The translations under genes and the position numbers were made by a program. From Pectobacterium aroidearum (GTDB lineage: Bacteria; Pseudomonadota; Gammaproteobacteria; Enterobacterales; Enterobacteriaceae): a DNA stretch of 64,000 nucleotides. Positions 53,063 through 53,836 of the stretch are shown in pieces. The notes below the pieces were generated by a model, which was given only the letters and a program-made list of their open reading frames with translations, searched no databases and was not told the DNA's origin. The number at the start of each line of letters is the position of its first letter. Position 1 is the first letter of the stretch. The DNA lies in contig NZ_CP065044.1 in assembly GCF_015689195.1 (NCBI RefSeq), positions 1,488,001 to 1,552,000 on the forward strand. Direction: 5' to 3'.

Positions 53063-53278
53063 CTACTCTTTCTGATTGACGAGTACGTTGGCAGGAAGCA
53101 GTAATTGTTCAGCACGCTGTTGCTGTTTGTCTTGATGGTGACCAAACGCGGTGATGGTGGAGTAGGCAAAGCGGCCTAAAAGAATAATGAAGCTGATGAG
53201 TAAAACGGCACGAGCAATCCGAGAGCCACTTCGTCGTGGACGTATCGATAATCGTCGTTTGTGGGTAAGCGTGGACAT
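53063..53278 (-). CDS. yfgG: Small inner-membrane protein YfgG (DUF2633)
   Basis: 71 residues: a very basic N-terminus (HKRRLSIRPRRSGSRIAR), one helix (AVLLISFIILLGRFAYSTI, about 24-42) and a polar C-terminus (HHQDKQQQRAEQ). The helix and the FGRF/LGRF-Y-S pattern match E. coli YfgG. In E. coli yfgG also lies near ppk-ppx and has been linked to nickel/cobalt stress tolerance. Here ppx is about 650 bp away, with the YjfB gene between. Confidence 0.85.
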   Translation of the reverse strand: MSTLTHKRRLSIRPRRSGSRIARAVLLISFIILLGRFAYSTITAFGHHQDKQQQRAEQLLLPANVLVNQKE

Positions 53279-53465: not shown

Positions 53466-53496
53466 AAAAACCCGCTCAAAAACGGATAAGCGGGTT
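53466..53496 (-). terminator. Terminator of the YjfB-type gene
   Basis: AACCCGCT / AGCGGGTT stem (loop of 12), followed on the minus strand by TTTTTGG, 17 bp past the stop at 53513. Confidence 0.82.
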
Positions 53497-53512: not shown

Positions 53513-53701
53513 TTACGCCGTGGTATTGACGTTACGCCCAATCGCCGGGTTTGCTGGCAGAGGTGGTAATGCCTTCAAAATGCCGGAAACGACAGCTTCT
53601 TGATTATCGATCGCTTTTTTCACCATAAGTGCGCTGGCCTCACTGCTGGTACGCATAGTACTGAGGTCGCTCGCGAATGATGAAATTTGTGATACATCCA
53701 T
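53513..53701 (-). CDS. YjfB-family putative motility protein
   Basis: 62-residue protein with the YjfB (PF14070) layout: MDVSQISSFASDLSTMRTSS, then ALMVKKAIDNQEAVVSGILKAL and a short P/A/N tail. Family members are small, mostly helical proteins found with flagellar genes; their action is unknown. GGAGAG precedes the ATG. A near-perfect sigma-28 promoter lies about 100 bp upstream, which supports a flagellar role. It is an isolated gene between yfgG and ppx. Confidence 0.85.
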   Translation of the reverse strand: MDVSQISSFASDLSTMRTSSEASALMVKKAIDNQEAVVSGILKALPPLPANPAIGRNVNTTA

Positions 53702-53809
53702 TTTACTCTCCTTAACACTGAGTTGGATCCATATCCGGCATGAAAAGGAAGCGCACCTTTTCGCCGAGACTGCATGATGTTGGCAAAATTCTCGCCAGCC
53801 ATCATTTTG

Positions 53810-53836
53810 GTATCGGCCCCATCCCTGTAAACTTTA
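53810..53836 (-). promoter_or_regulatory. Sigma-28 (FliA) promoter of the YjfB-type gene
   Basis: On the minus strand TAAAGTTT (53836-53829), 11 bases, then GCCGATAC (53817-53810). The enterobacterial FliA consensus is TAAAGTTT-N11-GCCGATAA, so only the last base differs. Expected start is near 53803, giving a leader of about 100 nt. Confidence 0.9.

Follow-up and report, generated by a model that had tools for sequence, protein, structure and literature searches.

The yjfB gene of Bacillus subtilis is SigD-dependent, and the promoters of FliA (sigma-28) follow the consensus TAAAGTTT-N11-GCCGATAA. Pfam gives the corresponding protein family, PF14070, the title 'Putative motility protein'. B. 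subtilis was the only one of 14 control genomes with a match to this family; the E. coli genome in the same set had none, which may be why yjfB was overlooked. As far as the accessible text of PMC11607428 goes, YjfB is an uncharacterised small protein that shares a module of flagellar superoperons with sigma-28 and FapA. The available portions of other reports give a value of 0.4165 for B. subtilis yjfB after rice seedlings (PMC4326333) and lower levels of a YJFB-family gene in a delta-amtB strain (PMC12388777), and we found no YjfB-family gene in the accessible part of PMC9650432. Among the matches listed by our literature search on yjfB, FliA and enterobacteria, none describes a FliA promoter on yjfB, although one may exist.

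Here we analyse a yjfB gene in a window of 64,000 nucleotides from the plant-associated bacterium Pectobacterium aroidearum (contig NZ_CP065044.1, positions 1,488,001 to 1,552,000). Its product is tied to PF14070 and B. subtilis YjfB by a full-length profile match above the cut-off. Whereas the family is reported in flagellar superoperons in other bacteria (PMC11607428, accessible text), here it forms a lone unit beside ppx in an enterobacterium. The gene has the promoter type of the class 3 genes of the same genome (fliC, fliD, flgM, motA and chemoreceptor genes), yet it is a single gene outside the flagellar cluster with a candidate function only. Like the scattered FliA chemoreceptor genes, it has its own sigma-28-like site far from that cluster; unlike them, it encodes no receptor or signalling domain.

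The yjfB unit and its sigma-28 promoter

The features of the locus, in the direction of transcription, are as follows.

53829..53836, minus strand: -35 box of the sigma-28 promoter, TAAAGTTT, 8/8 to the consensus and kept in relatives
53818-53828, minus strand: promoter spacer of 11 bp between the -35 and -10 boxes
53810..53817, minus strand: -10 box, GCCGATAC, 7/8 to the consensus
53702..53809, minus strand: 5' leader between promoter and start codon, containing the ribosome site and two hairpins with weak support, from RNA folding and alignment
53708..53713, minus strand: Shine-Dalgarno sequence AAGGAG, read from the sequence
53513..53701, minus strand: yjfB, encoding a 62-aa PF14070 (YjfB_motility) protein, from the ORF list and Pfam profile match
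53466..53496, minus strand: intrinsic terminator AACCCGCT...AGCGGGTTTTT closing the one-gene transcript, from RNA folding

The 62-aa reading frame starts with ATG behind the AAGGAG ribosome site. Its product is a member of PF14070.11 (YjfB_motility), scoring 51.1 bits (cut-off 27; E 1.4e-13) over profile positions 1-57 of 57; a search of YjfB against NCBIfam gave no family up to E 0.1. The closest named relatives, from a scan of one genome per species, are in Pectobacterium, with a 97% identical protein. A stem like that of the terminator is found in five of the seven relatives folded (L053, L054, L055, L058, L064). L059 has a different GC hairpin, and no hairpin with a T run was recognised 3' of yjfB in L062. 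Because the gene has its own promoter upstream and an intrinsic terminator downstream, we regard yjfB as a one-gene transcription unit. Upstream of yjfB and in the same orientation are ppk and ppx, and a gene for a 71-aa DUF2633 protein (53063-53278, minus strand) follows downstream of the terminator.

The gene stands at 1,541,513 of the genome and fliA at 3,045,601, about 1.5 Mb apart, and fliC, fliD, flgM and motA cluster at 3.05-3.10 Mb. No chemoreceptor gene was found within the window; the nearest one is 88 kb off. A preliminary description of this DNA had proposed an isolated YjfB-type gene of 62 residues far from any flagellar gene, which agrees with both the unit and its position.

The promoter (53836-53810, minus strand) reads TAAAGTTT-N11-GCCGATAC and matches the FliA consensus at 15 of the 16 fixed positions, bearing out the near-perfect site, one base off consensus, that had been described. 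The sole mismatch falls on the final base of the -10 box. No other of the 16 positions varies as much among 63 relatives (A 33, C 19, G 9, T 2); of these 63, which score at least 12, 62 or 63 share each base of the CCGAT core of that box. Counted back from the ATG, the -10 box ends at 108 bp and the -35 box starts at 135 bp, the two distances to which the earlier estimate of about 130 bp corresponds.

To put this site in perspective, the window contains four sigma-28 matches at up to 3 mismatches compared to 0.41 expected, and none of 100 shuffles reaches four; the remaining three have 3 mismatches each. The whole genome of 5.0 Mb has two sites with at most one mismatch, that of yjfB and one upstream of a chemoreceptor gene. 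If up to 2 mismatches are allowed, there are 16 sites besides that of yjfB, and ten of these stand ahead of flagellar or chemotaxis genes, namely fliC, fliD, flgM, motA and six chemoreceptor genes. Receptors or receptor sensor domains were typed by Pfam at L006, L008, L016 and L017, the receptor at L002 was assigned from the frame downstream of the site, and the L010 target is presumed to be a receptor that lies at a fitting distance and on the right strand. Other sites at this threshold fall inside long open frames (L003, L005, L007, L015) or ahead of ORFs that have no Pfam family (L004, L009). At up to 3 mismatches the genome gives 78 matches compared to 53 for a reversed control pattern, and these matches are mostly noise.

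One of the sites ahead of an ORF with no Pfam family has 2 mismatches and lies 45 bp before a frame of 294 aa (L004:1501-2454, genome position 702830), a possible further FliA target of unknown kind.

Promoter conservation in changing neighbourhoods

All 25 genomes of the genus contain yjfB, and in all 25 a site of 13-15/16 with an 11-bp spacer is found within 500 bp upstream of the gene. A scan of one genome per species supplied 68 named loci, and in 58 of them a site of at least 13/16 stands within 300 bp upstream. At the same threshold the control regions are empty (0/67 downstream, 0/68 antisense upstream), the best control score being 12. The promoter is therefore conserved, with related loci counting as non-independent events. 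The ten misses score 12 (five loci), 11 (three) and 10 (two); one of the three at 11, L061, has a 15/16 site at 383 bp, making it the 59th locus. Grouped by the genus label of their records, the loci fall into 20 groups, of which 18 include a site of 13 or more; some labels may be misnamed, and one of the 18 reads 'unclassified'.

The spacer is 11 bp in 63/63 sites scoring at least 12, with ties resolved towards 11. In an alignment of 12 upstream regions from Pectobacterium, Brenneria and Samsonia (the window plus 11 loci, L061 having been omitted beforehand), the boxes are nearly fixed and the preceding sequence drifts.

Among 548 neighbouring genes of at least 120 aa at the same loci, eight have an upstream region that reaches 13. 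Six of these eight sites belong to one chemoreceptor cluster and one GGDEF-EAL cluster, three of the eight genes having been typed by Pfam, and it is plausible that these neighbours are themselves FliA targets.

In Mangrovibacter, a protein gene just downstream of yjfB (L065:6823-9453 and L088:6823-9408) has its own 14/16 sigma-28 site; the L065 protein is a CHASE4-GGDEF-EAL protein by Pfam, with the L088 counterpart in the same cluster. A chemoreceptor gene on the other side of yjfB, typed in L065, has a 13/16 site.

Surrounding genes change from locus to locus. The ppx neighbourhood is confined, among the 68 loci, to 12 loci of Pectobacterium, Brenneria and Samsonia. The nearest neighbours of at least 100 aa fall into 42 left and 41 right clusters, a variety that crude ORF calls overestimate; two loci lack a right-hand neighbour within their contig. 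The gene, annotated 'YjfB family protein', is also carried by ten large plasmids of Pantoea, Duffyella, Rahnella and Ewingella; on the two of these that we inspected, the genes next to it are unrelated ones with metabolic and regulatory roles. The phage records searched for yjfB gave no match. Thus the unit of promoter and yjfB is kept in many related bacteria regardless of the surrounding genes. Since the unit is kept whatever its neighbours, yjfB is very probably part of the swimming machinery.

This conservation bears on the simplest objection, that the promoter match is due to chance and that yjfB is transcribed by a housekeeping sigma factor or by read-through from ppk-ppx. The orientation of ppk and ppx, upstream on the same strand, would allow read-through, and a weak sigma-70-like match overlaps the site, although two such matches were found in the region with 1.5 expected. 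Retention of the promoter in neighbourhoods that lack ppx, together with controls that are empty at the same threshold, makes this explanation highly improbable.

Beyond the named loci, 20 of 22 loci in the family sample reach at least 13 within 400 bp, with L045 at 12 and L052 at 11. In the phylum sample 7 of 26 loci reach at least 13, a count obtained with an enterobacterial consensus and a simple choice of start codon, at loci without controls; L130, whose start was not located, is counted as a miss among the other 19.

Two copies deviate in the protein itself. L052 is truncated or frame-shifted, has lost the usual N-terminus and falls under the Pfam cut-off, and L118 leaves the family sequence after about residue 28, as if frame-shifted; both are probably decayed copies of yjfB. 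Three yjfB relatives of the neighbouring family f2 in the same order (L147, L140 and L144), which are among these seven phylum-sample loci, have sites of 16/16, 15/16 and 14/16, and PF14070 scores of 21.8, 28.4 and 23 bits lie around the cut-off of 27. With such strong sites and scores so close to the threshold, the Pfam cut-off may miss part of the family.

The leader and the YjfB protein

We considered whether the working product could be an RNA, the leader or the 3' end acting as a sigma-28-dependent small RNA to which the ORF is secondary. In the two predicted leader hairpins, 5 of 28 pairs are changed on both sides among 11 sequences (an alignment that left out L056, L059 and L061), and sigma-28-dependent small RNAs derived from UTRs exist according to the accessible text of PMC10578931. 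Weighing against an RNA, the covariation term is about zero (+0.07) and an Rfam search of the yjfB region gave no match up to E 1, with none at the gathering score for L010. The distance from promoter to ATG ranges from 45 to 189 bp (sites of at least 12 within 300 bp), and some leaders have inserted sequence. The protein, by comparison, keeps seven tail residues (P49, N51, P52, G55, R56, N57 and N59) invariant in 45 sequences. We consider a working RNA very unlikely and favour the 62-aa protein as the product.

The inserted sequence parts promoter from yjfB in some Pectobacterium, by about 80 bp in L056 and by more in L061. Elsewhere the site lies 189, 248 and 383 bp from the ATG (L167, L169 and L156, respectively). 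A small, nearly invariant stem surrounds the yjfB ribosome site and places a GGA near its loop. A GGA in the loop of a leader stem is presumably the motif of an RsmA/CsrA site, and the stem could be a site of this type.

The 45 aligned YjfB sequences, which comprise the window protein and 44 of 63 distinct proteins (L112 and L118 having been removed before the 63), also share M1 and K29. An AlphaFold2 model predicts one helix (residues 3-44) followed by an unstructured tail, with a mean pLDDT of 76.7 and a pTM of 0.40. Amphipathy of the helix is not significant in a permutation test (p 0.24 at 100 degrees, 0.09 at the heptad angle). Sequence matches in the PDB reach a best E of 0.8, which we take as chance. 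The C-terminal tail, LPANPAIGRNxNTTA, is strongly conserved. Because the most conserved part of the protein is the part with no predicted structure, the model suggests that the tail may be a docking peptide. Given the unclear amphipathy, the low pTM and the lack of a PDB match, a mechanism at the level of the protein is a guess.

YjfB and the flagellar programme

The genome analysed encodes fliA (285.7 bits against 189.6) and has two flagellin-profile matches. We also compared PF14070 and flagellin across genomes. The family sample comprises 198 genomes, and PF14070 is matched at E <=0.001 in 22 of them (21 over the cut-off). Flagellin is found in 121 of the 198, including all 22 with PF14070 compared to 99 of the 176 without (Fisher p 1e-5, uncorrected for kinship). 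In the phylum the difference is not significant (p 0.061), with flagellin in 26 of 27 genomes with PF14070, 21 of the 27 over the cut-off, compared to 219 of 272 without and 245 of 299 overall. The sole PF14070 genome of the phylum with no flagellin match, G447, is 68% complete.

Expression data from a relative can be read alongside these counts. For this comparison we take fliM and fliP to be class 2 flagellar genes. Table 3 of PMC5867869, as far as the accessible text goes, gives RNA-seq log2 values for P. ananatis in two columns, low vs higher density and quorum mutant vs wild type. A 'putative motility protein', WP_014332946.1, has values of 3.038/0.542, next to fliA (2.837/0.848), flagellin (3.053/0.952), fliD (2.93/1.104) and motB (1.728/0.595). 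In that table the rod and hook genes react more to quorum loss (flgB 2.875/1.96, flgE 2.392/1.892), the quorum value is low for fliM and fliP too, and another flagellin has 1.6/4.051. P. ananatis LMG 2665 has a single PF14070 gene with a 14/16 site upstream. From its name and this single hit, WP_014332946.1 is probably the P. ananatis yjfB ortholog, and with that identity its expression pattern fits a late gene but is not decisive.

Taken together, the conserved promoter, the empty or nearly empty controls, the ten of 16 other genome sites that precede flagellar or chemotaxis genes and the co-occurrence with flagellin make yjfB very likely a late-class member of the FliA regulon in this organism, as the preliminary description had proposed from the sequence. 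That description had also tied this unexplained protein family to motility in enterobacteria. The link holds but is not new, as the Pfam name and the accessible text of PMC11607428 already connect YjfB with flagella.

FliA control could be right and YjfB could still act on the flagellar cascade, as an FlgM-like or export-coupled brake or as a helper of FliA, rather than as an accessory of the organelle. YjfB is small, has a FliA promoter and is reported beside sigma-28 in superoperons of other phyla (PMC11607428, accessible text), and FlgM is likewise small, with a 2-mismatch site in this genome. Yet similarity to the FlgM profile is absent (hhalign probability 0.1, E 0.43 against the FlgM of this genome) and the genome already has its own flgM, so that we find a regulatory role unlikely. 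An anti-sigma-28 of the FlgM type was also looked for directly, and YjfB gave no FlgM Pfam hit up to E 0.01.

We therefore favour, as a probable reading of the whole, a self-contained one-gene unit transcribed under FliA. Once the hook is finished, RNA polymerase with FliA would transcribe the unit of sigma-28 promoter, leader, 62-aa YjfB and terminator, and yjfB would be expressed together with flagellin and the chemoreceptors. With less confidence, YjfB may be a small accessory that serves the completed flagellum or the parts for export, motor function or chemotaxis, its N-terminal helix (about residues 3-44) may bind a partner or itself, and the conserved tail may dock on a conserved flagellar target. 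Many flagellated enterobacteria lack yjfB, so YjfB is probably needed only under some conditions.

More speculatively, we hypothesize that YjfB is an optional late flagellar part encoded by a portable promoter-plus-gene cassette, which would have moved through dozens of enterobacterial chromosomal and megaplasmid sites holding on to FliA control. The docking target of its strongly conserved tail might then be a conserved component of the export gate, motor or filament, and YjfB might in this way tune swimming once the hook is built. This is a tentative idea, and we would not be surprised to see it fail.

In sum, yjfB is very likely a new FliA-regulon member, well supported and ordinary in kind, whose family is known but functionally blank. 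With it, a widespread and uncharacterised family that carries a motility label would be clearly placed within the flagellar time-table of enterobacteria, and the strains that naturally have or lack yjfB would provide easy and cheap test material.
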